DNA from: a virus
DNA: 29,524 bases
IMG/VR virus record: IMGVR_UViG_3300031886_001092
Coordinates: 1 to 29,524 of that record
Reading direction: 5' to 3' (one strand)
A model generated the notes under the pieces. That model did not search any database, was not told the origin of the DNA, and worked only from the letters and a program-made list of their open reading frames with translations. The position numbers and the translations under genes are program-made. How positions within the stretch are numbered: the first letter of the stretch is position 1; every line of letters begins with the position of its first letter. Shown one piece after another: positions 4,042 to 19,592 of the stretch.

Positions 4042-5403
4042 ATGGCTTTAAGACTTAGAAGAGGTACAAACGTTGAACGATCGTTAATTACACCAGCAGA
4101 TGGTGAATTAATCTACACTACAGATACCAAAAGACTATATATTGGTGATGGTACCACAGCTGGCGGAAACCCTGTTGATACAGCAGGCGAGTTTTTAGGG
4201 TCTGATATAGATCTAAATAACTACAACATTACAGGTACAGGTAACATTAATACAACAGGTAATATTAATGTAACAGGTAGCATTACAGCAGATGGTAATC
4301 TTACACTTGGCGGAAACCTTACAATAGGTGATGCTTCAAGTGATACTGTTAGTTTTCTTGCTAAAGTAGAAAGTCACGTTATTCCAGATGTTGACGGAGC
4401 AAGAAACCTTGGATCTTCTAGTAATAAATTTAATCAAGTTTGGGCTAATACTGTTCATGTTTCTCAAGATGTTAATGCTACAAACATTAATGCTAATATT
4501 ATAGCTGACGATAGTACTGTAGTAATTAATAAAGCAACAGGAGCCATAAATGCCGCTGGTGTTTTTCAAGGCGAAGTTCAAGCAACTGATAACCAAGTAT
4601 TAATTAATCCAGCAACTAAGGCAATTGATGGTGCTACAATAACTGCTACTGTCAAATTGGTAGCTCCAGTTTTTGAAGGAACAGTAGACGGTGATATGAA
4701 CGGCTCTATATTTGGAGACGACTCAACACTATTAGTTGATGGCGTTAATAGTAGAGTTACACTTAACAACGGTACAGTTAATATTGATGGTGATCAAATT
4801 CAAACTACTACAACAGAATTGAAGCTAGGTGAAAAAACAGATGCGGTTGGTAAGACATTACAAATTACTAATACTGATGGAAGTTCACCAGTAGAACTAT
4901 TAGTAAAAGGATCAGCATCATTTGGTGGTGTAAGTAAATCAACTATTTCAAGTTATCACGGTTCAATGACAACTCCAGTTCAAGCAACTGATGGTGATTG
5001 GATCGGAGCATTCAACTCAGAAGTATGGGATCCTGGAACGTCATCTTGGATAGGATCAAGTTTGATTGCATTCAGATGTGATAACAATGAAACTGTAGCG
5101 TCTGATACAGCTAAAGGAAAAATTGCATTCATTAATAATGGTGGAACAGGTTCTACGCCAGCATTAAAAACAATGTCATTTGATTCTAGAGGATACCTAG
5201 CAATTAATAATACTCTTGACTATATTGCAACTGCGGCACTTGATGTTACAGGTGACTCAGTAGTAACTGGATATTCTAGAATGGGTAACTTAACAACTGT
5301 CCAACGAGATGCATTAACTCCTGAGGCAGGTATGATCATTTATAATACTACCGATAATGAATTCCAAGGACGCACAGGTGCGGCTTGGGTAGCATTACAC
5401 TAA
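4042..5403 (+). CDS. Tail fibre / receptor-binding virion protein
   Basis: A 453-residue protein. Residues 4-42 (LRLRRGT, then GELIYTTD and RLYIGDGTT) match the N-terminal domain common in phage tail-fibre and tropism-determinant-like proteins. Residues 66-95 are five tandem hexapeptides, a likely short beta-helix stalk. A long Thr/Asn/Gly-rich beta region follows, and the C-terminus (LTTVQRDALTPEAGMIIYNT, ending GAAWVALH) resembles fibre tips of marine phages. AGGAG lies 10 nt upstream, behind a late-type promoter octamer. It should bind a cell-surface receptor. It is the last clear virion gene before the enzyme-rich region, so it is one candidate target of those enzymes. Confidence 0.88.
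   Translation: MALRLRRGTNVERSLITPADGELIYTTDTKRLYIGDGTTAGGNPVDTAGEFLGSDIDLNNYNITGTGNINTTGNINVTGSITADGNLTLGGNLTIGDASSDTVSFLAKVESHVIPDVDGARNLGSSSNKFNQVWANTVHVSQDVNATNINANIIADDSTVVINKATGAINAAGVFQGEVQATDNQVLINPATKAIDGATITATVKLVAPVFEGTVDGDMNGSIFGDDSTLLVDGVNSRVTLNNGTVNIDGDQIQTTTTELKLGEKTDAVGKTLQITNTDGSSPVELLVKGSASFGGVSKSTISSYHGSMTTPVQATDGDWIGAFNSEVWDPGTSSWIGSSLIAFRCDNNETVASDTAKGKIAFINNGGTGSTPALKTMSFDSRGYLAINNTLDYIATAALDVTGDSVVTGYSRMGNLTTVQRDALTPEAGMIIYNTTDNEFQGRTGAAWVALH
4237..4326 (+). repeat. Five 18-nt tandem repeats coding hexapeptides in the fibre
   Basis: Five units of 18 nt (4237, 4255, 4273, 4291, 4309) encode TGNINT, TGNINV, TGSITA, DGNLTL and GGNLTI. DNA identity falls along the array, from nearly identical first units to diverged last ones. 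The pattern suggests a short beta-helical or triple-beta stalk that could change length by repeat gain or loss. Confidence 0.8.
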
Positions 5404-5448: not shown

Positions 5449-6120
5449 ATGAGCCTTACGTTATATACATCAGGTAGTACTGATGAACCAAAATTAATTA
5501 CTCATTCCTGGGACTTTATTAAAAGAAGTGCCCACAGGTCAGCAACCGAAATTGGATTAACTAAAGACGATATAGTACTAGATGTATTTCCTGCGAACAC
5601 TATAGCACACTACACAATCACCGGTCTTCCTGCGTTTGTAAGCGGCGCACAATACGTTTGTAGCAACTTTAATGCCTATACCTACCCTAAACTTTTTAAG
5701 CACGTTAAACCGACGTACATTAGCTTAATACCCCGTCATTTAGAATTATTAAACAAGACTAAAGACTTTAAAGATTTAGATATGAGTTGCGTCCGATATA
5801 TGGTTACAGGTAGTGCCAAAATAGAACAAGAATTTATTGATACGTTTAAAGCTAAAGGTGTACAAACTATTGCAAATTGGTACGGCATGACTGAGGTTCC
5901 ACCTCCTGTATTAATTGGATATGATTCTGTAAAATTTAATATGAAATCTGTAAGTAATGATCACGTAATGTTTCAATCTATTCATGACCCGTACCCTTTT
6001 AATTTAGCTGAATGTATTATTAACGGTAAATCTACAGGTGATATATTCGACATGGATAAACAAGAATTTTCACATAGACGAAAAGAGGCAAATGGACAAA
6101 CTTGGAAAACTGACGTTTAG
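5449..6120 (+). CDS. Truncated adenylate-forming (ANL superfamily) domain protein
   Basis: A 223-residue protein beginning almost at the ANL phosphate-binding loop: YTSGSTDEPK at residues 6-15 (motif A3; the usual Gly after Thr is Asp here). It continues with VTGSAKI (119-125, A4-like), NWYGMTEVP (143-151, motif A5) and STGD (195-198, A7-like), and stops at the hinge-like RRKEANG. Usual family members have about 150 residues before A3 and a C-terminal domain of about 110 residues with the A10 lysine; both are absent. It may still bind ATP and an acid, or be a degenerate remnant. SD-like TAAGAG lies just upstream. The next gene overlaps by 29 nt, suggesting joint translation with the GNAT-like protein. 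Substrate unknown. Confidence 0.72.
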   Translation: MSLTLYTSGSTDEPKLITHSWDFIKRSAHRSATEIGLTKDDIVLDVFPANTIAHYTITGLPAFVSGAQYVCSNFNAYTYPKLFKHVKPTYISLIPRHLELLNKTKDFKDLDMSCVRYMVTGSAKIEQEFIDTFKAKGVQTIANWYGMTEVPPPVLIGYDSVKFNMKSVSNDHVMFQSIHDPYPFNLAECIINGKSTGDIFDMDKQEFSHRRKEANGQTWKTDV

Positions 6121-6664
6121 ATTTGCAACTAATAATGATAAACCTTTAGTCGAAGATTTTTGCAAACTACAAAAAGATAATAATAATACCAGCCTAGAAA
6201 AAATGAAATGGGACTGGTGCCTAAAGAACGGTACGTGGACTGTTGCAATTTACGAAGATAAGATTGTTAGTATTGCAGGTATACACGACTTACCTGAAGT
6301 AGGATTTAATTGTTATAGATGTTTATTTCGTGGTGCTCAGCTTCCAGGATATACATTAGGTACCGGAAGAGACATTTTTAAAACAGGAATACACTTAACT
6401 CATTTATTAAACTTACAAATTGACTGGGCACCTAAGTCAGCAGACTTATTCATTAGCACCAATATAAATGATGACGGTGGCAAGAGCCAGCGTATGAACA
6501 ATACAATAATGCCGTTATTAGCTAAACGTGGTATATGGACTTTAGATAAAGAAATGGAATTATATAATGTACCACAGAACTTGTGGCGTATTAATGTTGA
6601 ACGGTACAAGGAAGAGCGTAACCGCTCGCTAAACAGCGATAAGAATACTGATCAAAAATCGTAA
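6092..6664 (+). CDS. GNAT-like acyltransferase family protein
   Basis: A 190-residue protein. I chose the ATG at 6092 (preceded by AGAGG) over an upstream in-frame ATG at 6038, which would overlap the previous gene by 83 nt and add residues that read like shadow sequence. The start (FRFATNNDKPLVEDFCKL) and the strand WTVAIYEDKIVSIAGI resemble a GNAT N-acetyltransferase beta-alpha-beta core. The later FISTNINDDGGKSQRMN segment is also compatible. No firm acetyl-CoA pyrophosphate loop is seen, so the fold is likely but the activity unsure. With the preceding ANL fragment it might form an activate-and-transfer acyl pair. Its end overlaps the convergent halogenase gene by 74 nt. Confidence 0.6.
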   Translation: MDKLGKLTFRFATNNDKPLVEDFCKLQKDNNNTSLEKMKWDWCLKNGTWTVAIYEDKIVSIAGIHDLPEVGFNCYRCLFRGAQLPGYTLGTGRDIFKTGIHLTHLLNLQIDWAPKSADLFISTNINDDGGKSQRMNNTIMPLLAKRGIWTLDKEMELYNVPQNLWRINVERYKEERNRSLNSDKNTDQKS

Positions 6665-7700
6665 AAGGTTTCTTTTTAATTACAACTTCTTTAACTTGGT
6701 TTTTCCAGTAGCTTGTATCTTTACTTGTAGCAGTATAATGTAGGTCTAAAAATTCTTCTATATGTTTAACTACGTTTAACCATTGCTTATTATACACTTT
6801 AGATTTACCTAGAAGTTTAACTAGCATTTCTATTTGATATTGTATAAGCCATATTGCTTGTGCTTCTAATGGTTCTATAAATCCTGCACTTAATCCTATA
6901 TTTAAAATATTACCTTCATAAGGGTTTTCACAATATTGACTTTCCCACTCAATTACTCTTAACTGAGCTAGTTCTAATTGATGTGGACACTTTTCTATAA
7001 ACTCTGCTTTAGCACTTTCTATTGATTGATGTTCTTTACTAAACACATACCCATTACCTATACGATTCTGCAGGTATATATTCCACATCCAACCATTGCT
7101 TAATGCAGTAGTTTCTGTATAGTATTTTAGCATCTTATCATAACTAGGTGCAACTATGGCACAATTATTCTTTAAGTTAGTTTTAACCATAGTCTTTGCA
7201 GGAAATAAGTTACTAAACCCTGCACAATTAATAATTAAATCTGCTTCAATATCGTCTATTGAGGTAAGTGTTTTATTAATAAGTTCTACGCCATTTGGTA
7301 ATGCTACTTTATCTCTAAGCATAATACCAAACTTATTAGCATCTATATGATAAGCATGGCGCCATTTTTTGTTAGGCTTTGCATAATTACGCATCCACTC
7401 TATTTGTTCTTTATGCTCTGATTCATCAAAGCAAAAATGATGCCACCATTGTTTATTATGCCAATCTCTATGACATATAGTATACTTCCTAACTGCATCA
7501 CAATGGTCAAATAAGTCTTGTTCTGTAAGTCCTATTTCAGTAATAAAGTCATACACACTAGGTAATGTACTTTCGCCGACACCTATTGGAGGGATATCTT
7601 CGCTTTGTATTACAGTAATTTTCCAGGTAGTTTTTTTAGAAAGGTAAGCGGCTGTCATCCATCCTGCGGTACCACCACCTACAATAGTGATGTTAGCCAT
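6591..7700 (-). CDS. Flavin-dependent (tryptophan-type) halogenase family protein
   Basis: A 369-residue protein with the family's main landmarks: GGGTAGWM (8-15, FAD site); IGVGESTLP (39-47); Lys72 in RKYTICHRDW, which aligns with the catalytic lysine of PrnA-type enzymes; GWMWNI (203-208), matching WxWxIP except that Pro is Tyr; GNGYVFS (215-221); and FIEPLEA (274-280) with the conserved Glu but Ala for the usual Ser. These enzymes use FADH2, O2 and halide to halogenate indoles or phenols. Marine phages are known to carry relatives, for example VirX1 of cyanophage Syn10. It is shorter than bacterial enzymes (about 500-540 residues). No flavin reductase is nearby, so reduced flavin must come from the host. 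It overlaps the upstream propeller gene by 8 nt and ends the - strand unit. Confidence 0.86.
   Translation of the reverse strand: MANITIVGGGTAGWMTAAYLSKKTTWKITVIQSEDIPPIGVGESTLPSVYDFITEIGLTEQDLFDHCDAVRKYTICHRDWHNKQWWHHFCFDESEHKEQIEWMRNYAKPNKKWRHAYHIDANKFGIMLRDKVALPNGVELINKTLTSIDDIEADLIINCAGFSNLFPAKTMVKTNLKNNCAIVAPSYDKMLKYYTETTALSNGWMWNIYLQNRIGNGYVFSKEHQSIESAKAEFIEKCPHQLELAQLRVIEWESQYCENPYEGNILNIGLSAGFIEPLEAQAIWLIQYQIEMLVKLLGKSKVYNKQWLNVVKHIEEFLDLHYTATSKDTSYWKNQVKEVVIKKKPFTIFDQYSYRCLASGYALPCTVQH
6614..6638. other. Overlapping hairpins between convergent gene ends
   Basis: GAGCG-TAAC-CGCTC (6614-6627) and the overlapping CGCT-AAAC-AGCG (6627-6638) can form alternative small stems where the GNAT-like and halogenase genes converge and overlap. 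Neither has a T-run immediately after it, so a terminator role is only possible. Confidence 0.3.
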
Positions 7701-8937
7701 TAGGTTCTAATGATAAATCAACCGATAATAGTTTAGAATTTTTAGAAGTTAAATTAACAATAGCAAGTTCACCGTTTAACTTATCATCTTGTAAATTAAA
7801 TTTGTAAGGTGCTAACACTGAAATATGTTCTACATCATTAATTGCACCTGAAGTAATATTTGAAGTTCCAATATCAAATGCTTCTTCAATTGATTTGTCT
7901 AATACTTTAAACACTTTTGATGGTGCGTTAGTTGTACTTGGATTCTGAATTGAAGGGAACAAATAAACAATACCTTCGTTAATTACAGGTTTAGTACCTA
8001 AAGAATGATTAGTTTTTAATGTTTCTAATGTTGCATTATCTAAATTAACATAGACTAAATCTTGTGATCCGTCCCAACAAGTATGTGTAACTAAAGTGTT
8101 ACCATGAATTGTTCCATACTTGAATCCCATATTGCCGCCCATGTCATCATTGCTTTCGGGAATATACTCAACTGATTTAACTTCAGTACCGTCATAAATC
8201 CAAAAATACATTTTGTCCGATTCGTCCATTATTAATGGAGCCCCAACCGCTTTAGAGCCGTTAGTGTTAACATGATAGAACGCACCGTTAGTTGGTGCTA
8301 TATGTGATGTAAGGCTGTTAGTTTCAAGGTTTAATGTTAACAAAGTATTTGTTGTTTTACCATATGGAAAAAACACAACTTCGTTTAAATCTTTTACATA
8401 TACACTATGAATAGAAGCAAACTTTTCGTCTGTTTCATGTACCGTGAATGTCTTATCAACTGCATCAAATACAACAACCATTCCGCTATTAATAGGAGGA
8501 TAAATGATTTTGTTGTCTACTGTGATAGGACGACCAAAGTTAAAATGTCCACAAAATGTTTTAGGAGTTTCTGAACCGTGTACTGTGACACCTTTTTCTT
8601 GAATCATTGTAACTTCATTAGTATCTAAGTTAACAGATGCTACTCTTACAATGCTGTCTACTTTGTCTTTTTGAGTACGCATTACGTATGCTGTATTTCC
8701 TACAACTGCAACGCCACGATATTTGTCACCTGGCTCACTATGTTCATAAAAATCAACAAATGTAGTTGTTCCTTCGTTTGCATTTACTCTAAGCAAACCT
8801 GGTCTTGCACCAGCATCTTTATTAAAATCTCTTGTTAATTCGCCGTCCTGACGAACCTTCCCATTAGTAATTACAGACAGAAACTCACCATTATTAATAT
8901 AATGTGGTTCATCTAAAACTTGTGTAAAGTACGTCAT
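7693..8937 (-). CDS. Beta-propeller-like repeat protein
   Basis: A 414-residue protein made of irregular beta repeats of about 45-55 residues. Each pairs a strand such as IIYPP, VVFFPYG or IVYLFP with a following strand ending in an Asp-containing turn (for example VVVFDAVDKTFTV and LLTLNLETNSLTS). This is typical of Kelch/WD-like propellers and resembles the two propeller proteins at 15578-17942, though less regular. No signal peptide or membrane segment is seen. AGGAGA precedes the ATG, and a late-type octamer lies 20 nt upstream, so it may be expressed late. The gene overlaps the halogenase by 8 nt. It could be a virion adhesin, or a scaffold or substrate for the tailoring enzymes; function unknown. 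Confidence 0.7.
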   Translation of the reverse strand: MTYFTQVLDEPHYINNGEFLSVITNGKVRQDGELTRDFNKDAGARPGLLRVNANEGTTTFVDFYEHSEPGDKYRGVAVVGNTAYVMRTQKDKVDSIVRVASVNLDTNEVTMIQEKGVTVHGSETPKTFCGHFNFGRPITVDNKIIYPPINSGMVVVFDAVDKTFTVHETDEKFASIHSVYVKDLNEVVFFPYGKTTNTLLTLNLETNSLTSHIAPTNGAFYHVNTNGSKAVGAPLIMDESDKMYFWIYDGTEVKSVEYIPESNDDMGGNMGFKYGTIHGNTLVTHTCWDGSQDLVYVNLDNATLETLKTNHSLGTKPVINEGIVYLFPSIQNPSTTNAPSKVFKVLDKSIEEAFDIGTSNITSGAINDVEHISVLAPYKFNLQDDKLNGELAIVNLTSKNSKLLSVDLSLEPNG

Positions 8938-8956: not shown

Positions 8957-8964
8957 TATTTATC
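8957..8964 (-). promoter_or_regulatory. T4-late-type promoter octamer (GATAAATA), - strand
   Basis: Read on the - strand, GATAAATA lies at 8964 to 8957, overlapping the stop codon of the upstream oxygenase gene and about 20 nt before the propeller ATG at 8937. It could start a late transcript covering the propeller and halogenase genes. The following leader holds AGGAGA. Confidence 0.5.
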
Positions 8965-9685
8965 ATGCAATATGACATTTCAAATCTAGAAGTGATTGCA
9001 TAAAATCATTATCTACCCTAGATAACAAGTGAACACGCTCAGTTGAGCCTGTATTTGCGGTGCCATGCTGGATCATAGTATTAATTATGTAGGCTTTGCC
9101 CAGTTCCATATGGTATTTTCGATCACGATTTTCACCAAAAGTAAAGACCGCGTCTTTATTTGTATAAAATGGAATATGTAGCTTTTTAACGTTACCGTCA
9201 GAGTGAGTATCAACTGATAATCCGCTTGGATGTAATGCCATTAACATCTGTCGTAATGCTGACAAACTAAGACTATCTATTAAAGAATTTAGTATACCAA
9301 ACTTGTACTTCTCTTGTGGTACTGATTTATAATAAAAATCCTGCTCTGATAATCCTTGCAACTCAGGATACATATCAAAATTTGCTTGGGATTTTGAAGG
9401 ACACGGAATATCTCTATTAACAGGCCAACTTATACTCCATCCTTGAATGTTACCTAAATAATTTCCAACACGCCCTTGTGTTTTATAAGTTTCGTAGATA
9501 TCCGGGCGTAAACATTCCTGCGAATCAAAACTAAAATTAAATTTGTACAAGTCTGTTTTTAATTTATTGTAGTATTCATTTAATGCATCAGGATCAATAG
9601 TAAAATCTAATTCTACTATATCCCAATCAAGATTATCAAACAGAATAGTCACATCTTCAATATCACTAGGCTTTAATACTCTCAT
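8963..9685 (-). CDS. AspH-like 2OG/Fe(II) oxygenase
   Basis: A 240-residue protein whose C-terminal half carries the aspartyl/asparaginyl beta-hydroxylase pattern. It has a HSD iron-binding pair followed by LHIPFYTN, then LGKAYIINTMIQHGTANTG with the distal His, and an Arg in TERVHLL that would bind 2-oxoglutarate. The family couples 2OG decarboxylation to substrate hydroxylation. The N-terminal half has a GWSIS segment followed by IPCPS, also seen in the next upstream paralogue. It overlaps that gene by four bases (ATGA). The substrate may be a protein side chain or a small molecule; unknown. Confidence 0.78.
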   Translation of the reverse strand: MRVLKPSDIEDVTILFDNLDWDIVELDFTIDPDALNEYYNKLKTDLYKFNFSFDSQECLRPDIYETYKTQGRVGNYLGNIQGWSISWPVNRDIPCPSKSQANFDMYPELQGLSEQDFYYKSVPQEKYKFGILNSLIDSLSLSALRQMLMALHPSGLSVDTHSDGNVKKLHIPFYTNKDAVFTFGENRDRKYHMELGKAYIINTMIQHGTANTGSTERVHLLSRVDNDFMQSLLDLKCHIA

Positions 9686-10233
9686 TGATAATCCTTTGCT
9701 GGCACTTTGAAAAATAAATGAACTCTGTCAGTAATGCCATTGTTAATAGTGCCGTGTGGTTTGGTAGTATTTATTAGATATGCTTTTCCAACTTTTAAAC
9801 AGTATTGCTGATCACCAAATACAAAAAATGATTCAGAATTTGCTATAATAGGAATATGTATTTTAATATATTTGTCAGTATCGGTGTGTTGTTGAATTAT
9901 AGTTCCAGGTGGATGTCCACTTAAACTAAATTGTCTTGAATTCGGAAATATGTTTTTCAATTCATCAATAATACCAAACACCAGGACAGTATCTCTATAA
10001 TTATCGGTTCTGTTTTTGTGTACATTCCATGGAGGACATGGCACAGTTAAATCTTCTAAATTACTTTGTATTCCCCAACCATATACACTTGTAACATTAT
10101 GCTTTTCTGAATCAACAACGTCTTTTATATTAGTAAACTTAAGATGTTGAAATTTTATACAGACTTCGTTATAATAATTTCTAAGATTACTATAATCAAT
10201 ATCAACATCTATTTCTTTTACATTAAAGTTCAT
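9682..10233 (-). CDS. AspH-like 2OG/Fe(II) oxygenase
   Basis: A 183-residue protein with HTD (iron pair), IKIHIPI, VGKAYLINTTKPHGTINNG (distal His) and Arg in TDRVHLF (2OG). It shares the GWGIQ...VPCPPW region with its downstream neighbour, so these two look like a tandem duplication. I chose the ATG at 10233 because it overlaps the upstream stop codon by 11 nt. A longer reading to 10290 would start far inside the upstream gene and add residues unlike the paralogues. Likely an active oxygenase of unknown substrate. Confidence 0.76.
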   Translation of the reverse strand: MNFNVKEIDVDIDYSNLRNYYNEVCIKFQHLKFTNIKDVVDSEKHNVTSVYGWGIQSNLEDLTVPCPPWNVHKNRTDNYRDTVLVFGIIDELKNIFPNSRQFSLSGHPPGTIIQQHTDTDKYIKIHIPIIANSESFFVFGDQQYCLKVGKAYLINTTKPHGTINNGITDRVHLFFKVPAKDYQ

Positions 10234-10897
10234 TTGTCCATACCTTACCATACAGGTGTATTCTATTTGTACTACCTTTATTTTCCACACTATGTGGAAT
10301 AGTAGTATTTACAAGATACGCCCAGCCCGGTTCCATATGAACCTCTTCATCTCCTATGATCCAGTTACTATCTTGATTAGTATGTATAGGTATATGAACT
10401 CTAATTTTATCTGGACTGTCTTGATGTGTAATTAATTTTGTATTAGGTGTATGTACAGTTACTACCCACTTCTTGCTACGCATAGGTAATTGTTTAACAA
10501 GTTCTAATCCGTATCCTGTAAAACATTTACGAGGATTTAATTCATCATTATCATTATCTCTGTACTCTGGTTTTGCACAACCCTGTTCAAATGGCTTAGG
10601 TCCTGGATCATCACTATTCCAACAAAGTGTATAATATGCCGCATCGTTGGGGAGATAATGTCCTGTCTTTGCTTCTGGATCACTAATAGGAAATTGCCAT
10701 ACATGATTATTCTCACCAATAACAAACTTCCAATCGGAATAATTTTCTTCAAGGTCTTTATACCATGCTTGTATTTTTTCTACATCTACTTCAAACAACT
10801 TTCGAACTTTAAAGCCTAAGTCAAGAGAGGTATGTTTTTCAATATATGGTTTAAAATCTTGGATGTGTTGTTTGTTTTCCATTCCTAACTCTTTCAT
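10223..10897 (-). CDS. AspH-like 2OG/Fe(II) oxygenase
   Basis: A 224-residue protein with HQD (iron pair), IRVHIPIHTN, PGWAYLVNTTIPHSVENKG (distal His) and Arg in TNRIHLY. This is the third AspH-like gene in an uninterrupted row, with a more diverged N-terminal half than the other two. The start could be 10897, or the in-frame ATG at 10882, which has GAG 6 nt upstream. Either way it overlaps the end of the upstream gene by more than 30 nt, so translation is probably coupled. Substrate unknown. Confidence 0.76.
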   Translation of the reverse strand: MKELGMENKQHIQDFKPYIEKHTSLDLGFKVRKLFEVDVEKIQAWYKDLEENYSDWKFVIGENNHVWQFPISDPEAKTGHYLPNDAAYYTLCWNSDDPGPKPFEQGCAKPEYRDNDNDELNPRKCFTGYGLELVKQLPMRSKKWVVTVHTPNTKLITHQDSPDKIRVHIPIHTNQDSNWIIGDEEVHMEPGWAYLVNTTIPHSVENKGSTNRIHLYGKVWTNEL

Positions 10898-12314
10898 TTA
10901 TATCTACTGCAACGTAATCATGTCCGTATAATATTAAATCTTCTGGTATTAAAGTTTCAAATATTTTCCACTTTTCTTCTAACACTTCAGGTTCAACGTT
11001 CCAATGTAACATTTCACTCGACCATATATTAGTAGTCCATAACACTTTTGTACCTTTAGTACTTCTTATTTTTTCAAATAATAACTGAGGATTATTAACG
11101 ATATCTATCAAATGAAACTCATGTTTTAAATTTTTATATCTATCCCATAGTGTTTTAAACACTTCTCTACCACCATGTTCAGCAACTTCTTGTTGCCAAA
11201 ATGACTCGTAATTGCCTCTATACGTTGAGGAGAAGTTGTATTCTAGGTCATGTTCGAGTAACCATTCATGTAAATCGTAGCCATCCCACGTCTCTAATAG
11301 ATGCTTTTTATATTTTAAACTTGCTTCACACCAATCAAAGTAATGTATTTGTGTTCCTTCATGAAAGCCGTTTGTATTTAAAATAGCAAGTGGTTTAAAT
11401 CCTGCCGCGGCACTAAACAATACATCAATAGGTTTATTTGTACGCACACCTTCACTACTGAGTGTTTCTGTATTAAACGCATACACTCTATCTTTTTCTA
11501 TTTCTTCTTGGTATGCTAATTTTCTTATCCATCCTCGTTGCGCCTGATTAGTTAACTTATCAACTGTCGGCGATTGCTTATTATACCAAACTGATTCTAA
11601 TTTTTCTGTATCAGTATACGGATATAAAAATACTTTACAAGCCCGCATATCATTATCTAAATTATCAATACGAACATTATTTTTACAAGCAATATCAATC
11701 CAATTACTTCCATCACTAGTTACGCTATGGTCAGCACTTCCTTCGGTACCTTCTATCCAAGACGGAGTATAATTACTATGTATTGTTTCTTCACTTAACT
11801 TATAATTTCTTAAATTTTGTTTTCTATCCCAAAAGAACCCTATTTCATCAAATGATGGTTTACCTAGTTTAGTCCAAGTATCTAAATTAACAAACAAATA
11901 TTGTCTATGCAATCCTGGATACGCACCATTAGTTAAATAATGTTGTGCTTGTTTGTCCATAATATGAGCTATTACAAAAAAATTAGGATTCTTATCTGCA
12001 TAATCTAAACTTTGTACTATAAGACTTTGCCCTCGAAATAATAACAATCCTTGACAAGCAACCATACAATACTTTTTACCCTTTTGTACTGCTTCGTCTA
12101 GCATTTCTTTAACACTTTTATACGACCCTATATAATCACTTAACCCTGCTTTTACCATACGATTAATATAAAAGTATGTCATATCAAGTGTACGTTTATT
12201 AATAGTATTACTGTTGATATCTCTACTAATATTAAGGATACCTATAGCTACTGTACTAGGTACTCTTATCCCTTCGTAATATCTATCAACAGTAATACTA
12301 TTCCAATCTTTCAT
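10851..12314 (-). CDS. Large two-domain protein of unknown function
   Basis: A 487-residue protein I do not recognise. Residues about 80-160 (KKYCMVACQGLLLF, FVIAHIMD, GLHRQYLFVNLDTW) look like an alpha/beta domain and could be glycosyltransferase-like. Around 297-345 (VLFSAAAGFKPLAIL, then IHYFDWCEASLKYKKHLLE) there is a weak likeness to a SAM-methyltransferase fold, without a clear glycine-rich loop. No signal peptide or membrane segment is seen. I chose the ATG at 12314 because GAGGAT lies 5 nt upstream and the preceding gene's stop is one base away; an in-frame ATG at 12344 lies inside that gene. It sits between AspH-like oxygenases, so it probably works on the same product. Confidence 0.7.
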   Translation of the reverse strand: MKDWNSITVDRYYEGIRVPSTVAIGILNISRDINSNTINKRTLDMTYFYINRMVKAGLSDYIGSYKSVKEMLDEAVQKGKKYCMVACQGLLLFRGQSLIVQSLDYADKNPNFFVIAHIMDKQAQHYLTNGAYPGLHRQYLFVNLDTWTKLGKPSFDEIGFFWDRKQNLRNYKLSEETIHSNYTPSWIEGTEGSADHSVTSDGSNWIDIACKNNVRIDNLDNDMRACKVFLYPYTDTEKLESVWYNKQSPTVDKLTNQAQRGWIRKLAYQEEIEKDRVYAFNTETLSSEGVRTNKPIDVLFSAAAGFKPLAILNTNGFHEGTQIHYFDWCEASLKYKKHLLETWDGYDLHEWLLEHDLEYNFSSTYRGNYESFWQQEVAEHGGREVFKTLWDRYKNLKHEFHLIDIVNNPQLLFEKIRSTKGTKVLWTTNIWSSEMLHWNVEPEVLEEKWKIFETLIPEDLILYGHDYVAVDINERVRNGKQTTHPRF

Positions 12315-12315
12315 C

Positions 12316-13011
12316 TTATCCTCTATTTGTAAAATAACTTTCACGCAATACGTAAAAGAAATCTCTAACCCTACGCCCTATTTCATAATGTATAATTATA
12401 TGGATTCTTGGCTTATCACTACAATTCCAAACACTATGTACATTACTAACATCCATTAAAAAAGCACTTCCTTCATTTTTAAAAGGAACACGCCCTTTAT
12501 CTTTTAATGCAAAATTACACCCTTCAGGATTATTCAAACTAATATTACAAACACTTAATCGTTTTTCGTGATCTTGTCTATCTTGATGTGGCAATATATA
12601 CCCACCGGGTTCTAACAACATAAAACGAACACGATTAAAAAATTCAGCTGGCCATACATCAGTTAAAAACTTTTTAGTTACTGGACACTTATCTGCTACC
12701 CAAGTCCAATCTAATTGTTTAAGTGTATCTTGTCGATCACCATATGTGTCAAGACTTTGAGTATCTTCGTCTAATCCGTGTAATGTTAAACTCTTCCAAC
12801 CGTCACCATAAGTATCTCTATGAACATGAAATTTATCACTTAATGCTTCTGCTTCTTTATACATTTCTTTCCACGGTTGACCATCTAATGAACTAAGATG
12901 AAAGTAGGGCCAACCACTTTCAGTAACTATCCATTTAGGATCAAACACTTCAGGATACTTTTGCTGTACTACAGTATTATTTTCGGTGTGAAATTTCTCC
13001 AATTCTAGCAT
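12316..13011 (-). CDS. Aspartyl/asparaginyl beta-hydroxylase family oxygenase
   Basis: A 231-residue protein with a clear AspH pattern in its C-terminal half: a PHQD iron pair preceded by LLEPGGYI, LSVCNISLNNPEGC, then SAFLMDVSNVHSVWN (distal His), and Arg in KPRIHIIIH (2OG). The long N-terminal extension is Trp/His-rich. It is the first gene of the leftward unit. No SD is seen before the ATG; instead a late-type octamer ends 6 nt upstream, so the mRNA might be leaderless. The protein differs clearly from the three tandem AspH-like proteins downstream, so it may act on another position or substrate. Confidence 0.82.
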   Translation of the reverse strand: MLELEKFHTENNTVVQQKYPEVFDPKWIVTESGWPYFHLSSLDGQPWKEMYKEAEALSDKFHVHRDTYGDGWKSLTLHGLDEDTQSLDTYGDRQDTLKQLDWTWVADKCPVTKKFLTDVWPAEFFNRVRFMLLEPGGYILPHQDRQDHEKRLSVCNISLNNPEGCNFALKDKGRVPFKNEGSAFLMDVSNVHSVWNCSDKPRIHIIIHYEIGRRVRDFFYVLRESYFTNRG

Positions 13012-13068: not shown

Positions 13069-14046
13069 ATGCCATTTTTGAAAATTGAAGAACTTAAGAC
13101 CCTTATTATAGATTTTACAAGTCATTGTAACGCTATGTGTGGCAATTGTAGCCGTAATATTTCCGGCGTTGAAGTTAATCCTAATATGCCATTAGAGCAT
13201 ATGAGCTTAGATACTTGGAAGAAAATAATTGATAATAGCGAACATATTGATGAAATAATTTTTAATGGCAGTTATGGTGATGCAATGATGAATCCTATTT
13301 TATTAGAAGCATTAGAATATGCTAGTTCAAATAAAATTAGTATTATGATTCATACTAATGGCGGTATTGGAAAACCTGAATTGTATATTGAGTTAGCAAC
13401 TATTCTAAAAAATTTTAAACAACCTAGCGGTGTAACTTGGAGTATTGACGGATTGGAAGATACTAATCATTTGTATCGTAGAGGTGTTATATGGCAAAGA
13501 ATTATAGACAATGTACAAGCATTTATTAAAGCAGGCGGATTAGCTCGTTGGCGTATGTTAGTATTTGAACACAATGCACATCAAGTAGAAGAATGCGAAC
13601 GTCTTGCATTTAGTATGGGTTTTAAAAAATTTGATATTAATGGTGGGTATACTTTTAGTGCTATTAATAGTGTTGTAGGCGAAGCAATAGAGAAGTTTAA
13701 GGCAAATAAAAAAGAAGAAGCACGTACCGTTGCGTATGATAAAAAATATTTAAACAATGTAGAACGTGTAAAAGGATTGTTAGAAAAAGGATTCGATAAA
13801 GGTCATATTACTTGTAAGTGGCAAAAGAAACGTAAAGTGCAAATAAGTCATATTGGTGAAGTGTTACCTTGTTGCTATTTGTTAAGCGAAAGATATCCTA
13901 AAGATCCTAACAGTCTTTATACTATAGATATGAAGTGGCCAAATATAAACACAGAATCATTAAAAAATATTGTACAAGGTGAAACACTTACATATCCAAA
14001 AGATAATAGATTTAAAATTTGCGAGATTACCTGCGGTGAAGTGTAA
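13069..14046 (+). CDS. Radical SAM enzyme (sub-family A)
   Basis: A 325-residue protein with the radical SAM cluster motif CNAMCGNC at 20-27. It has a matching core: IDEIIFNGSYGDAMMNP in place of the usual GGEP strand, then IMIHTNGG and WSIDGL. C-terminal Cys residues (ITCKW, LPCCYL, FKICEITC) could bind a second Fe-S cluster as in SPASM/twitch domains. It would reductively cleave SAM to start a radical reaction on a peptide, sugar or small molecule. It is a close paralogue of the protein at 22437-23435: both share a DGL-DT-LYR stretch followed by AGG-ARW-MLVF-HN. It leads a six-gene overlapping unit. The absence of an SD suggests leaderless or weak initiation. Confidence 0.85.
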   Translation: MPFLKIEELKTLIIDFTSHCNAMCGNCSRNISGVEVNPNMPLEHMSLDTWKKIIDNSEHIDEIIFNGSYGDAMMNPILLEALEYASSNKISIMIHTNGGIGKPELYIELATILKNFKQPSGVTWSIDGLEDTNHLYRRGVIWQRIIDNVQAFIKAGGLARWRMLVFEHNAHQVEECERLAFSMGFKKFDINGGYTFSAINSVVGEAIEKFKANKKEEARTVAYDKKYLNNVERVKGLLEKGFDKGHITCKWQKKRKVQISHIGEVLPCCYLLSERYPKDPNSLYTIDMKWPNINTESLKNIVQGETLTYPKDNRFKICEITCGEV

Positions 14047-15109
14047 ATATTTAGAAAATCAAATTTGTGTAAGATCAGACGGTCAATATCGTTTGTGTTG
14101 TGTTAGTCTTGAAAAAGATAATAAAGAAAACATTAAAGATATGAATCCACAAGAATGGCACGACAGTGAATTTCATACAAAAACTAGAGAACAGCTTGAT
14201 CGAAATGAATGGCCTGATGCTTGTACTAGATGTGAACAACTCGAAGCAAAAGGATTAGATAGCCAACGTACCAGAGTAAAAGAAGACGGTACTAGATACG
14301 TTAGAAATCAATATGGTCCAGGACTTTCTCACTTTGATATTAGATTTGGTAACAGTTGTAATCTTAAATGTATTAGTTGTTTTCAGATGTCTAGTAGTAG
14401 TCTTGCTCAAGAAGCCATCGAAATGTCAAAAGCAGGAGTACAACCATTACACTTACCTCTATTAGATGATCCTAATTTTAATTGGGCAAGTGACGAAACT
14501 ATGAAACGCTTTGAGAACTTGCCTATTAGAGAAGTTTACTTAACAGGTGGCGAGCCAATGGTTGTAAGACATTTACCCAAGTTTTTAGAAAAACTAGATT
14601 CTAGTGTAGTAATTAGATTTAATACTAACGGTACAATATGGAACCCTATAGTATCAAAGATGTTAAAAAGATTTCACTCAGTAATTATGAGCATGAGCCT
14701 TGATGCTGTTGATAAAAAAATAAATTATATACGTTACCCTAGTAAATGGGATGAAATTGAAATTAATACCCAACGGTATGCAGAATTTTGTACTGTTGAT
14801 ATTACACCAACGATAAGTATTTTAAATGCTTCTTACTATAATGAAATTATAGAATGGGCAAATAACAATCACTTTAGATTATATAACGAAAATTTATTAC
14901 TAACTCCTGATTGGTTACACGTTAAAAATGCACCAGACGAATTAAAGAAAAATTATAAATTACCAGAACTATCTAAATGGGCTGACGAGCCTGCTGATCC
15001 TAAATGGATTGAACACTTTAAAAGACAGATAACAAGATTAGATAGCTGGAGAAAAATATATATAAAAGATTACTTACCGGAGGTAGCAAAAGCATATGAA
15101 CTTAATTAA
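14036..15109 (+). CDS. Radical SAM enzyme with N-terminal twitch domain (sub-family B)
   Basis: A 357-residue protein. An N-terminal Cys cluster (KCKYLE at the start, LCC at about 20-22, CTRC at 63-66) precedes the radical SAM motif CNLKCISC at 108-115 and GGEP at 171-174. This is the order of the N-terminal-twitch radical SAM family, where the extra cysteines hold an auxiliary Fe-S cluster. I chose GTG 14036 because the protein then starts MKC, as its paralogue at 17939 does, and overlaps the previous stop by 11 nt; upstream in-frame codons lie deep in the neighbour. It pairs with sub-family A, as 21134-22444 does on the other strand. Substrate unknown. Confidence 0.84.
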   Translation: MKCKYLENQICVRSDGQYRLCCVSLEKDNKENIKDMNPQEWHDSEFHTKTREQLDRNEWPDACTRCEQLEAKGLDSQRTRVKEDGTRYVRNQYGPGLSHFDIRFGNSCNLKCISCFQMSSSSLAQEAIEMSKAGVQPLHLPLLDDPNFNWASDETMKRFENLPIREVYLTGGEPMVVRHLPKFLEKLDSSVVIRFNTNGTIWNPIVSKMLKRFHSVIMSMSLDAVDKKINYIRYPSKWDEIEINTQRYAEFCTVDITPTISILNASYYNEIIEWANNNHFRLYNENLLLTPDWLHVKNAPDELKKNYKLPELSKWADEPADPKWIEHFKRQITRLDSWRKIYIKDYLPEVAKAYELN

Positions 15110-15578
15110 AGAAAATAAAGAAAAACACAGAGCGATCTTTAAACTTGACGATCGTTACAGAAAAGTTTGGTACGTTAACCCAGACCTTGGTCCTTTTGCT
15201 GAAGCTGTTGACGAACACATAGAAATCTTAGAAAAATTTATGCCTGGCTATGTTCTTGACCATGGGTATACTACTGAAAGTATATACATAGATTATAAAA
15301 TTTTACCAGGCACACCAGCAAGTAAATTTCCACATACTAAAGAATTTGCGGAGAAAATTTATAATTTTTGTATCGAGAATATTAATAAGACATCACCTTA
15401 TGCTCATGGCGATTGGGTTTTAAGTAATATTCTTATTGACGGAGATAATATGCAAATAATAGATTGGGATAATTTAGCTGTACACGAAATTAAAGATGTA
15501 CTAGAGAAATTAAAGAGTGATTTGAAATCAGCATTCGGAGAAAAATTCGATGAATTTTTACCAGGAGAGAAATTTTAA
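15096..15578 (+). CDS. Small kinase-fold phosphotransferase-like protein
   Basis: A 160-residue protein with the catalytic signature of aminoglycoside/choline-kinase-type phosphotransferases: HGDWVLSN at 104-111 (catalytic Asp and Asn) and IIDWDN at 121-126 (metal-binding Asp). The N-lobe is much reduced; Lys23 in RYRKVWYV may be the ATP-binding lysine. Usual members are about 250-350 residues, so this is a minimal version. It overlaps the upstream radical SAM gene by 14 nt and the downstream propeller by one base (TAATG). A sugar or small-molecule phosphorylation step is plausible; the target is unknown. Confidence 0.75.
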   Translation: MNLIKENKEKHRAIFKLDDRYRKVWYVNPDLGPFAEAVDEHIEILEKFMPGYVLDHGYTTESIYIDYKILPGTPASKFPHTKEFAEKIYNFCIENINKTSPYAHGDWVLSNILIDGDNMQIIDWDNLAVHEIKDVLEKLKSDLKSAFGEKFDEFLPGEKF

Positions 15579-16801
15579 TGATCGCACAAGCATTTAGTTA
15601 CGCAACTCTTAGTAATAACGGATTTATCTACATTCCTCCATATGGACTTTCAGAACCTCTTGATTATATGTTAAAAATGGATCCTAATACTTATGAAATT
15701 ACTACGATAAAATTAAAAATTAATACATCATGTGAAAAGTGGCAACGTGGTATTGCATATCGTAAGAAAATATATTTTTTACCATATAATGAAGAAAATA
15801 TTTTAGTTGTTAATACAGATGATGATAGTATTGAGTATATTAAAGTAGAACAGCCTGGGCAAGGAAAATATATACAAGGCCACATATATCGTAATAAACT
15901 AATTGCATTACCTTATGGTGAACATACACCATATGATTATGTTCTTAAATTAGATCTAGAAAGCCATGAAATAGAATTACAAAAACTAACATTACCACAT
16001 AATGATTGTAAAAAGTGGCATACTACACAAATACTAGACGGAATAATTTATGGATTACCTAGAGGTGAAGATTTGGAAAAGTATTTCCCATATAGAATAC
16101 GATACGATTGTACTACTAGTAACTATGTATTTACAGATATGTCTCCATTATGGTTAGACTACGATCAAGAACCGATGACTAATAAAAAATTTACTACAAT
16201 GGCTAAGGTAGGTAATAAATTGTTCGCACCACCATATAGCGAAAATCCTAACTTTGATACTTTAATTAAATTTATAGACGGTGAATGGTTTAGCGAAAGA
16301 ACAGGATTAAAAGCAACTAGTAGAAAGTATTATACTCATACTGTTGCTCGTAATGGTAAAATATTTTGCCCTCCAGCTGGACATGATGAGAATTGGAGTT
16401 CAATGCTTGTAATAGATAGTGTTACTCATAAGTGGCATACTATTGAATTAGGTATTGGGAAAGAAAGTAAAAAATATTTTGCTGGTGTGGAAAACTCCCA
16501 AAACAAAATTTATTATATTCCACGAGGTGGTTGTGTTTGCGAACCTACTGATACTTGGAAAAAACAAGGTGATCTTGCAGAAGTACTTGTAGTTGATACT
16601 ATATCAGAACAATTTTACACTATAGATATTAGTGAATACTTTAAAGATTCAACTACTATTGAAAAATATAATAACTGTATTATTAAAGATGATATTATAT
16701 ATGCATTTCCATATGGACAAAGTGATAGTTTCCAAACTGTATTAGTTTTTGATACTATTAAAGAACAAATTATACATACGACAGACTTAAATGACTTATA
16801 A
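15578..16801 (+). CDS. Beta-propeller protein with PPYG-type repeats
   Basis: A 407-residue protein with eight repeats of a (L/F/I)P-x-(Y/R)G-type motif, at about residues 20, 69, 112, 161, 219, 266, 315 and 378. Each is followed by a strand ending in (V/L)-x-D and then a second strand, consistent with a seven- or eight-bladed propeller. No signal peptide or catalytic motif is seen. It is coupled to the kinase upstream (TAATG) and to a second propeller downstream (11-nt overlap). The placement between radical SAM genes makes it a candidate substrate or docking scaffold; a virion or receptor-binding role is the other reading. Confidence 0.76.
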   Translation: MIAQAFSYATLSNNGFIYIPPYGLSEPLDYMLKMDPNTYEITTIKLKINTSCEKWQRGIAYRKKIYFLPYNEENILVVNTDDDSIEYIKVEQPGQGKYIQGHIYRNKLIALPYGEHTPYDYVLKLDLESHEIELQKLTLPHNDCKKWHTTQILDGIIYGLPRGEDLEKYFPYRIRYDCTTSNYVFTDMSPLWLDYDQEPMTNKKFTTMAKVGNKLFAPPYSENPNFDTLIKFIDGEWFSERTGLKATSRKYYTHTVARNGKIFCPPAGHDENWSSMLVIDSVTHKWHTIELGIGKESKKYFAGVENSQNKIYYIPRGGCVCEPTDTWKKQGDLAEVLVVDTISEQFYTIDISEYFKDSTTIEKYNNCIIKDDIIYAFPYGQSDSFQTVLVFDTIKEQIIHTTDLNDL

Positions 16802-17942
16802 AGCCTTTGAAGATTTTTACCGCGAAGCAAAAATTAAACATCTAATACTAGAAAAACATAATGATGTTTTAATATCACCTCCGTTTGCTACAGAACGTTG
16901 TAGAGATTATAGTAGCATAGCAGTATATGACGGTAAAGATTATCTATCATATATTGATCTTAATTTACCTGATGCAACAAGTAAAATTAATGCTGTAGCT
17001 CAAGTTAATAATAGTAGTTGGTTAATTCCTTATGGTATATGGGATGACTTAAACATTGTTATAGAGTTAAAAGACTTAACACCTATATACCATACATTAA
17101 ATAGACCAGGAAAAGGACAATTTTATAGCATAGCATCAAATGGAACTAGTGCTTGTGGTTTTCCTCTTGGATATGAAGATACTAATTATATAATTTATAT
17201 TGATAGAACTGGGTTACGCACAATTAACTTTATAACTAATAATAAAAAATGTCATATGGGAACTGTATACTGCAATGGAAAATATTGGAGTATGCCTAGA
17301 GGTGACTGGAGAAATTATAATTCATTAGTTAGTTACGATGGTGACACTATTCAGCAATATGAAATACCTGTTGATCCTCATATACCTAGAAAGTTTACGG
17401 ATTTAATTCCTGTGGATAATACTTTATACAGTTTACCATACGGAGAAGAGGCTGGACTTAATAGTGTTGTAGAATTTGATACTAATAGTAAAGAAATTAA
17501 CTTGCATGAACTTGACGTTCCAGATTTTGCTAAAAAATATAATGCTCAAGTACTAGTTGAAGATACTATTATTGGATTACCATACGGAGATGAACATAGT
17601 ATGGATAGTGAAACGGGTGTTTGCTTTAATACTGTAACCAAAAAAAGCAAAGCATTTAACCTTGGATTATGCTGGGGTGGAAAATATAGATTTCGTTCGG
17701 GTATAGCATATAGAGGTAAAGCAATTTTTCTTCCAACTGGTTCACCCAGTTGTCCTATTATAAGTGTAGATGTTTATGATGGTTCAATAAGATATGATAC
17801 AATTTCTCCTGATAAACTATTCGGACGACCTATTATTTTCCAAGACAAATTACTTACAATAGTATATGATCTTAAAACTACATCATCAACTATAGTAGAA
17901 ATTGGTGAAGATTTATCGCTAAAAGAGGTAATCAAAATATGA
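16791..17942 (+). CDS. Second beta-propeller protein with PYG-type repeats
   Basis: A 383-residue paralogue of the preceding protein, with repeat motifs at about residues 30 (PPFA), 80 (IPYG), 125 (FPLG), 169 (MPRG), 216 (LPYG), 264 (LPYG) and 315 (LPTG), spaced about 45-51 residues, suggesting seven blades. It starts inside the last codons of the previous gene and ends in an ATGA overlap with a radical SAM gene. The repeat sequences differ enough that the duplication is not recent. No catalytic residues or export signal are seen. Confidence 0.76.
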   Translation: MTYKAFEDFYREAKIKHLILEKHNDVLISPPFATERCRDYSSIAVYDGKDYLSYIDLNLPDATSKINAVAQVNNSSWLIPYGIWDDLNIVIELKDLTPIYHTLNRPGKGQFYSIASNGTSACGFPLGYEDTNYIIYIDRTGLRTINFITNNKKCHMGTVYCNGKYWSMPRGDWRNYNSLVSYDGDTIQQYEIPVDPHIPRKFTDLIPVDNTLYSLPYGEEAGLNSVVEFDTNSKEINLHELDVPDFAKKYNAQVLVEDTIIGLPYGDEHSMDSETGVCFNTVTKKSKAFNLGLCWGGKYRFRSGIAYRGKAIFLPTGSPSCPIISVDVYDGSIRYDTISPDKLFGRPIIFQDKLLTIVYDLKTTSSTIVEIGEDLSLKEVIKI

Positions 17943-19066
17943 AATGTTACGCACCTTGGCATAGTATTTTGGTACGCTTTAATGGTGATATCACACCCGA
18001 TGGTGTGTATACTAAACGCTATGGAAACGTACTTAAAACACCTTTAAAAGACGTCTTAGACAGCTTTACAGCGTCATACACAAAGGATTCTATACGCATG
18101 GATATATTGCCCCCAGAATGTGAACAATGCCCACGTAAAGAAGCTGTAGTAGGTCATAGCCGAAGATTATTCTTCCGTGATATTTTAAATCCTATGCTTG
18201 AAGGCAAGGATTACGATTACTCAAAAAACTTCCATGACATATACTTTTTGGAATTTAATATGAGTAATATTTGCAATCTTAAATGCAGAATGTGTAATGG
18301 TATAAGTTCTAGTACCTGGATTAAAGAAGAACTTAAATTGGATGCACTTTCAAAAGACTATATGCGTCCGGTAGATAATCCGGAATTTGGTTATACTAAT
18401 TTAAGTGAGGAAATAGTTGATAGACTATTTGAAACTCCAGAAGTGTTTACTAATTTAGCATACCTTAGTATTAAAGGCGGTGAACCTTATATGGAGCCTG
18501 CAAATAAAAAAGTATTTAAAAAACTCATTGATATGGGGATAGCAAAAAACATAACGTTAGACGTTACGACTAATGGAACAATTGTTGACGAAGAATTTCA
18601 CGAACTTGCACACCAATTTGGTCATACTAAATGGACTGTTAGTATTGAGGGGACTGGAAAATTATACCAATATATTAGAGGTGGTGAACATTTTACAATA
18701 GAACAATTAACAGAAAACTTAAAATCATTTGAACAATTTGACAGAGTTATTATTGCTGTTACTGTTCAAACATATAATATTGCACACTTACATAAAATAA
18801 AAGACTGGTATAGAGGGGTTTGTAAAAGCAACTATTCAATTTACTTTAATAATGTGGTTGCAACTCCACCATATCTTAATCCTAGAGTACTTCCTGATAA
18901 TATATTAAAAAAGATAAAGTTTAAATTACCAAATATAAACTATATACAAGATCCTAAATTAGCATCACAACTTAAGACGTTTATTAACTTTACAAAAGAT
19001 TTAGATAAAATTAGAAATACAAATATATTAGAAGTATGCCCAGAATTTTCTAGCTTGTTTGAATAG
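17939..19066 (+). CDS. Radical SAM enzyme with N-terminal twitch-like domain (sub-family B)
   Basis: A 375-residue protein. It starts MKCYAPWHSI with Cys3, has CEQC at 61-64, then the radical SAM motif CNLKCRMC at 112-119 and GGEP at 180-183. The usual CC pair of the N-terminal twitch (present in the other two sub-family B proteins) is replaced around residues 19-22 by a sequence without Cys. Its auxiliary cluster would therefore have one fewer obvious ligand. It is the last gene of the + unit, coupled by ATGA to the second propeller. Its 3' end overlaps the convergent SDR gene by 17 nt. Substrate unknown. Confidence 0.84.
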   Translation: MKCYAPWHSILVRFNGDITPDGVYTKRYGNVLKTPLKDVLDSFTASYTKDSIRMDILPPECEQCPRKEAVVGHSRRLFFRDILNPMLEGKDYDYSKNFHDIYFLEFNMSNICNLKCRMCNGISSSTWIKEELKLDALSKDYMRPVDNPEFGYTNLSEEIVDRLFETPEVFTNLAYLSIKGGEPYMEPANKKVFKKLIDMGIAKNITLDVTTNGTIVDEEFHELAHQFGHTKWTVSIEGTGKLYQYIRGGEHFTIEQLTENLKSFEQFDRVIIAVTVQTYNIAHLHKIKDWYRGVCKSNYSIYFNNVVATPPYLNPRVLPDNILKKIKFKLPNINYIQDPKLASQLKTFINFTKDLDKIRNTNILEVCPEFSSLFE

Positions 19067-19592
19067 GATCTAATGATATATAATGTATATTATATGTGTT
19101 AGGTGAATCTATAACCCATTTAACAATTTTTCCAGCTTCTTCTAAACTAATTTTCTTTCTACCATCTTTTCTTTTTTGTTGACCTTCTGAAGCTAATTGT
19201 CCAAATGCAATATTAGTTATTCTAATTGAACTAGGTCCCCAACAAATATTTTTACATAAACGTTTACTTACATCATCTAAGTGAGTTTTATTCCTTATAT
19301 AATCTTCTGAACTTCCGTCGCCCCAATAACTACTTGTACTACTAATATTAATAATATGTCCTGTTCCAAATTTTTTATAAACAGCTTCTAAAATTTTTAA
19401 TTGTTGTCCATCAGGACCATATTGACTGTTTATAAATATTTCAAAATTCTTCGCATAGTCGGCAATTTTTTCTACGTCATTAATGTCCCAACCATTATAC
19501 CTACCAATACATTCTATACCGCTTTCGCTAGTACGAACAATGCCTTGAGTTAAACCTTGATAACTGGGATTTCCTGTTATAAGTATTCTCAT
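19050..19592 (-). CDS. Short-chain dehydrogenase/reductase-like protein
   Basis: A 180-residue protein with a Rossmann start (ILITGNPSYQGL, residues 3-14), NISSTSS at 82-88 containing the catalytic-type Ser, and YIRNK at 98-102 as the SDR YxxxK. It is shorter than classic SDRs (about 250). The glycine motif is irregular (TG followed by five residues, then G), so the cofactor site may be unusual. ATGA overlap couples it to the upstream radical SAM gene, and it is the last gene of the long - unit. With the NDP-sugar dehydrogenase and glycosyltransferase upstream, a sugar oxidation/reduction step is plausible. Confidence 0.72.
   Translation of the reverse strand: MRILITGNPSYQGLTQGIVRTSESGIECIGRYNGWDINDVEKIADYAKNFEIFINSQYGPDGQQLKILEAVYKKFGTGHIINISSTSSYWGDGSSEDYIRNKTHLDDVSKRLCKNICWGPSSIRITNIAFGQLASEGQQKRKDGRKKISLEEAGKIVKWVIDSPNTYNIHYISLDPIQTS

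Follow-up and report, generated by a model that had tools for sequence, protein, structure and literature searches.

Analyzing a window that comprises the whole IMG/VR virus record IMGVR_UViG_3300031886_001092 (29,524 bases), we found that four minus-strand genes between 8963 and 13011, here named AspA to AspD, encode Fe(II)- and 2-oxoglutarate (2OG)-dependent oxygenases of family PF05118 (Asp_Arg_Hydrox) and fall into two modules, one formed by AspA, AspB and AspC and the other by AspD together with U497, a protein with a predicted glycosyltransferase fold. Of the enzyme class and this two-module structure, taken jointly, we are highly confident. The best reading of the locus is that it forms part of a phage surface-tailoring island beside a tail-fibre gene. 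To the whole chain proposed below, running from the oxygenases through activated groups and a sugar step to surface decoration, we give a probability of about 35%. All four genes lie within a single seven-gene leftward unit (13011-6591) that reads AspD, U497, AspC, AspB, AspA, prop1 and a halogenase gene, and whose members either overlap or lie no more than a few tens of bases apart.

Four PF05118 oxygenases with conserved iron sites

AspA (8963-9685, 240 residues), AspB (9682-10233, 183 residues, overlapping AspA by 4 bases), AspC (10223-10897, 224 residues, overlapping AspB by 11 bases) and AspD (12316-13011, 231 residues) scored 31.6, 47.0, 48.3 and 55.8 bits against PF05118 (E-values 1.8e-7, 3.2e-12, 1.3e-12 and 6.3e-15), all above the curated Pfam cut-off of 22.6 bits. 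A search of the whole record returned the identical four genes, and 14 control genomes gave none. The first-pass annotation had read H-x-D, a distal His and an Arg, in this order, in the four open reading frames (ORFs), and these ligands were confirmed as H161/D163/H207/R217 in AspA, H116/D118/H160/R170 in AspB, H158/D160/H202/R212 in AspC and H142/D144/H192/R202 in AspD. The AspB residues are counted from the ATG at 10233, where its orthologues begin and which is probably its start; counted from the GTG at 10290, as in the first-pass annotation, they are H135/D137/H179/R189. Among 33 aligned A-C sequences and 22 aligned D sequences, all four positions were invariant. In a larger set of 238 distinct A-D domains, the two His and the Asp were kept, apart from single gapped rows, in every aligned domain of A (43), B (72), C (50) and D (73), and a different residue took the place of the Arg in a single A and a single C, so that the 2-His-1-carboxylate site with its 2OG-binding Arg is nearly invariant; the loss of iron ligands that had been named as refuting evidence was not observed. 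The median ratio of nonsynonymous to synonymous substitution rates between relatives was 0.07-0.09 for each of the four genes, indicating that each is under purifying selection. With their iron ligands kept and these ratios low, AspA-D are under selection as enzymes.

Some further copies depart from this pattern. Among the extra copies that we could assign to none of the four groups, the Arg position was Trp in 12 of 46, including copies adjoining the fibre gene at L025:13612-14382 (minus strand; L numbers denote loci of our collection) and in its relatives. In the window itself, the first-pass annotation overlooked a fifth, remote and degenerate oxygenase-like member, AspE (20491-21141, minus strand), which is without a Pfam match, falls below the PF05118 cut-off and aligns to AspD in hhalign with an E-value of 4.1e-5. 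It has H134/D136/H184 and no Arg; H-x-D and His are conserved in 22 of 22 distinct relatives, with Ala, Ser or another residue at the Arg position.

AspA, AspB and AspC as old tandem paralogues

Comparison of profiles by hhalign matched A with B (E-value 5.5e-35) and B with C (1.5e-27) over most of their length, and C with D weakly (6.7e-5). In a tree of 96 rows, A, B and D were single supported lineages and C formed one side of a branch with support 74, D being remote, with about 2.3 changes per column along the branch to either side of the root. Because the A, B and C labels of this tree derive from profiles of these very groups, the clustering is in part built in, and the independent evidence for the three lineages consists of the branch supports and of B-B fusions. 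The GW...PCP region noticed earlier in two neighbours is present in AspA and AspB (GWSISWPVNRDIPCP and GWGIQSNLEDLTVPCP, respectively). These comparisons mark AspA, AspB and AspC as full-length, old paralogues from tandem duplication, and mark AspD as a remote PF05118 lineage outside that tandem. The duplication that the first-pass annotation had proposed is upheld for the former three and not for AspD.

DNA direct repeats inside the unit were negligible, indicating that the duplication is not recent at the DNA level; judged from the tree, it predates the split of the sampled phages. The 126 loci that we collected collapse to 42 distinct islands, which carry 2-6 A-C-type domains each. Nine of these islands encode a B-B fused protein, and such fusions, together with the extra copies, indicate that the duplication process continued after A-C. 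Copy number, which had been singled out for comparison among relatives, indeed varied, with 1 to 6 PF05118 copies per related record (19 records searched); in a 267-kb relative, six PF05118 genes all lie inside a 15-kb stretch (162.8-177.8 kb). An alignment mixing A, B and C sequences proved too diverse for use as a search query. Profiles of AspC and U497 found no relative in bacterial genome contigs, and plasmid matches to AspC were short, with at most 38.5% identity. The persistence of each paralogue as a separate lineage makes several distinct hydroxylations likely, which agrees with the earlier suggestion that multiple positions are hydroxylated; that one repetitive or polymeric molecule carries them is conjecture, nearby repeat proteins (7693-8937 and 15578-17942) being candidates that do not occur in all islands.

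Structural neighbours of the oxygenases

The predicted model of AspB (predicted local distance difference test, pLDDT, 88.7) is a 2OG-oxygenase jelly-roll whose best match was Cpz10 (7v4m; Z 18.8, root-mean-square deviation 2.4, 160 aligned residues), further matches being AspH (5jqy, Z 16.5), proline 3-hydroxylase (1e5r, 15.3) and proline cis-4-hydroxylase (4p7w, 14.1). The substrates of all these neighbours are amino acids or aminoacyl groups. Cpz10 was also the top match of the A-C sequence profile, which in addition found proline cis-4-hydroxylase, AspH not being among the matches listed; the AspD profile found Cpz10, proline cis-4-hydroxylase and AspH. Cpz10, the caprazamycin beta-hydroxylase (PDB 7v4f/7v4m), shares with AspB its fold, its size and the His-x-Asp...His...Arg order, and the spacing of its triad His115, Asp117 and His160 and of Arg170 (PMC9814697) is nearly equal to that of AspB. 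It differs in being a lone antibiotic-pathway enzyme on an aminoacyl-glycyluridine, with 16% identity, no array and no glycosyltransferase-like partner. Amino-acid-type chemistry for the oxygenases is, in our judgement, slightly better than an even bet.

The first-pass annotation had called the four proteins AspH-type. Human AspH is likewise 2OG-dependent and of the PF05118 fold, but its iron is held by His679 and His725 only, with water replacing the carboxylate (PMC13168262), whereas the iron-binding Asp is kept in all aligned A-D domains. This difference places AspA-D outside the AspH subfamily, so that the label fits them as the name of a fold and not of a subfamily. Solved constructs of human AspH also carry a TPR domain, for which the phage proteins are too short.

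Two NCBIfam equivalogs for lipid-modifying enzymes gave sub-threshold matches, LpxO to AspC (13.7 bits; cut-off 500) and OlsC to AspD (22.1 bits; cut-off 450). Such matches would fit a hydroxylation of lipids or lipopolysaccharide (LPS) of the host envelope, serving for instance superinfection exclusion, as would the LPS glycosyltransferases of pelagimyophage host-recognition regions (PMC7029224). With scores so far under the curated cut-offs, we regard this explanation as improbable.

AspD is coupled to a protein with a predicted GT-A fold

AspD is set apart from the tandem by the intervening gene for U497 (10851-12314, minus strand), a 487-residue protein without a Pfam match. Across 73 distinct cases, the two genes were adjacent on the same strand in 56, fused in 7 (in L058-L069) and convergent in 2. 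Six of the 19 records searched had a PF05118 count of one, and AspD occurs without A-C in other phages. The earlier view of the four oxygenases as one set in a leftward unit is borne out as to the single unit, but AspD belongs with its glycosyltransferase-like partner. tblastn of U497 and AspD against 50,697 phage records gave no match.

The predicted model of U497 (pLDDT 86.6) matched GT-A glycosyltransferases over residues 1 to 230-276 with Z of about 9-10, including PBCV-1 A064R, mimivirus R699, ColGalT1 and LH3, and its C-terminal domain may be methyltransferase-like. A 2OG hydroxylase joined to a GT-A domain, in one protein or as a pair, is found in LH3 and in the mimivirus collagen hydroxylase/glycosyltransferases L230 and R699, and AspD-U497 resembles them in joining an oxygenase and a predicted GT-A fold as a fixed pair or a single chain. 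These enzymes belong to another oxygenase family than AspD, however; the match of U497 to LH3 covers residues 293-553, and a collagen-like substrate was not seen here.

A hydroxylase paired with a glycosyltransferase-like protein also recalls DNA base hypermodification, in which a base is hydroxylated and then glycosylated as in TET/JBP systems, and the oxygenase and glycosyltransferase-like pair as well as the tailoring enzymes would fit such phage systems. We know of no PF05118 member acting on DNA. Three close relatives, one of them 267 kb long, had neither a Tet_JBP match nor a thymidylate-synthase-type enzyme, and we disfavoured this explanation as highly improbable.

Two observations concern the surroundings of this module. 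A 316-348-residue protein, possibly a third partner, is encoded ahead of AspD, or of the AspD-U497 fusion, in three distant phages (L058:9016-9978, without a Pfam match, L064:3298-4248 and L068:8950-9996). In L039 and L040, rSAM5-like radical S-adenosylmethionine (SAM) genes form tandem arrays around AspD and U497.

Partner genes and a proposed tailoring pathway

The A-C array recurs with a set of partner genes. A compact AMP-binding (adenylate-forming) enzyme (5449-6120, plus strand, 223 residues), whose main motifs TSGST..PK, WYGMTE and TGD are conserved, was found in 38 of the 42 islands and in 38 of the 38 long enough to tell; the four islands without it end less than 2 kb past the last oxygenase. 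A candidate GNAT-like acyltransferase (6062-6664, plus strand, no Pfam match) was present in 39 islands, and the flavin-dependent (tryptophan) halogenase (PF04820; 6591-7700, minus strand), the final gene of the leftward unit, in 31. A tail-fibre-type gene (4042-5403, plus strand), which marks the island edge and was recognized by reading and by its position in relatives, lies near the array in 24 islands, many of the remaining ones being cut off early. Repeat proteins were more variable: prop1 (7693-8937, minus strand, 414 residues), of propeller-like make-up by reading, occurred in 12 islands, and prop2 and prop3 (15578-17942, plus strand), two related proteins with P-Y-G motifs and a remote likeness to prop1, in 34 and 32, respectively. 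prop2 and prop3 were not seen around some arrays, and searching the PDB with profiles of the propeller-like proteins yielded nothing usable.

Given that both modules lie beside a tail-fibre gene in dozens of related phages, the data suggest a dedicated chemical tailoring pathway. We propose that AspA, AspB and AspC, using Fe(II), O2 and 2OG, would each place a hydroxyl at a different position on an amino-acid-type group, that the compact AMP-binding enzyme would activate these groups and the GNAT-like protein hand them on, and that some of them would also be halogenated. AspD would hydroxylate a side chain on which U497 would then act, probably adding a sugar, in the manner of lysyl hydroxylase/glycosyltransferases. 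The structure that the product decorates would most likely be a phage adhesin or else the host envelope, with altered recognition as the outcome, a view that we hold tentatively, at somewhat less than even odds. A bolder version, which we consider a long shot, is a tailoring line in which an expandable oxygenase array writes hydroxyls and the hydroxylase-glycosyltransferase adds sugar on an adhesin or envelope polymer, with copy number tuning recognition; if true, it would be the equivalent, in a bacterial virus, of the hydroxylation and glycosylation of collagen.

Several points weigh against this pathway. Hydroxylation by AspA-D, the class of their substrate and sugar transfer by U497 are inferences. 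The structural neighbours of AspB vary in substrate, so the fold leaves the substrate unsettled. The GT-A match of U497 is modest and a conserved D-x-D is absent (24 sequences share no pair of Asp residues two positions apart), so that U497 may not be a sugar transferase. The GNAT assignment stems from a weak profile match to a GNAT structure (E-value 0.012), and the fibre gene owes its name to reading, without a family match. Being neighbours does not prove that genes serve one pathway, and common descent links many of the islands.

The same neighbourhood can be read as serving protein or peptide maturation, the oxygenases acting with seven radical SAM enzymes (four with SPASM domains), the halogenase and PCMT, all encoded in the window, on a phage protein such as the fibre or the propeller-like repeats, or on a peptide resembling ribosomally synthesized and post-translationally modified peptides. 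prop1-3 lie close by, and AspH, which the oxygenases match in fold, has protein repeats as substrates. However, the overlapping or abutting genes with their small gaps leave the island scant space for a separate precursor peptide, the propeller-like proteins can be missing, and the two-His iron site and TPR domain of AspH are absent from the phage proteins; we consider maturation unlikely, though to be taken seriously. A second possibility is the tailoring of free amino acids or small molecules into a soluble phage-made metabolite with no surface role, for which the co-occurrence of AMP-binding enzyme, GNAT-like protein and halogenase speaks, as does the fact that besides AspH the nearest solved structures are Cpz10 and proline hydroxylases. 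No synthetase was recognized among the window genes, however, and the position beside the fibre gene points to recognition, leaving this explanation quite doubtful.

Parts of the proposed surface-tailoring island have known counterparts. In the accessible part of the pelagimyophage study (PMC7029224), aspartyl/asparaginyl beta-hydroxylase is a core gene of these marine T4-type phages, whose hypervariable host-recognition region combines tail fibres, glycosyltransferases and radical SAM genes, much as here; a paralogue array, fused di-domains and a paired glycosyltransferase-like gene are not described in that part. Phage flavin halogenases are represented by VirX1 of cyanophage Syn10, which the accessible part of PMC8407142 does not report alongside oxygenase arrays; the window halogenase is about 30% identical to the Syn10 tryptophan halogenase gene. 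We found no description of the oxygenase array, the B-B fusions or the AspD-U497 unit in the open-licence literature. Phage 2OG oxygenases are mostly without an assigned role, and here one family has undergone duplication and fusion and persists, with fixed partner genes, in no fewer than 42 distinct phage islands, while a second is bound to a GT-A-fold protein closely enough for fusion in some phages. This provides a defined gene set for expression and assay, and a route to the role of enzyme-rich regions beside phage tail fibres.

Phage type, transcription signals and further gene content

The VWA gene of the window matches jumbo phages and close relatives encode gp23, so the phage is likely a T4-type jumbo myovirus, presumably marine given its relatives' kinship with marine phages. 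No DNA-level similarity to phage records was found, and tblastn of AspB against phages gave a single marginal match. The end of the halogenase gene bears a terminator-like stem, the frequency of such stems in the window barely exceeding that in shuffles, and promoter-like sites were not more numerous than in shuffles. A candidate T4 late promoter ahead of AspD was dropped, as it had one mismatch and the ribosome site would not fit. The T4 late-promoter core TATAAATA occurs once in the whole window against 8.8 occurrences expected from shuffles.

The radical SAM genes of the window lie within 13069-26417, 13 kb adjoining the oxygenases, together with PCMT (24185-24847, E-value 4e-56). Radical SAM proteins also adjoin lone AspB relatives at L202:6799-7995, where the protein has an HMPTM N-terminal zinc ribbon (PF23545), and at L199:8576-9730; desaturase-like and sulfotransferase-like genes were recognized by eye nearby in L203. 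In L110 (IMGVR_UViG_3300017752_004327), the oxygenase array contains hemC (7268-8014; PF01379, E-value 5.2e-61) and hemE (9262-10197; PF01208, 8.6e-67), and a small HemJ-like ORF was seen by eye at 10781-11071, without a Pfam match; hemC was not found in 8 related records, and heme genes including hemC have been reported from pelagimyophages (PMC7029224). Finally, a small protein of about 150 residues recurs between oxygenase genes (L147:1394-1852, L075:8668-9135 and L192:7570-8004), its L147 copy weakly resembling dual-specificity phosphatases (E-value 8e-5).

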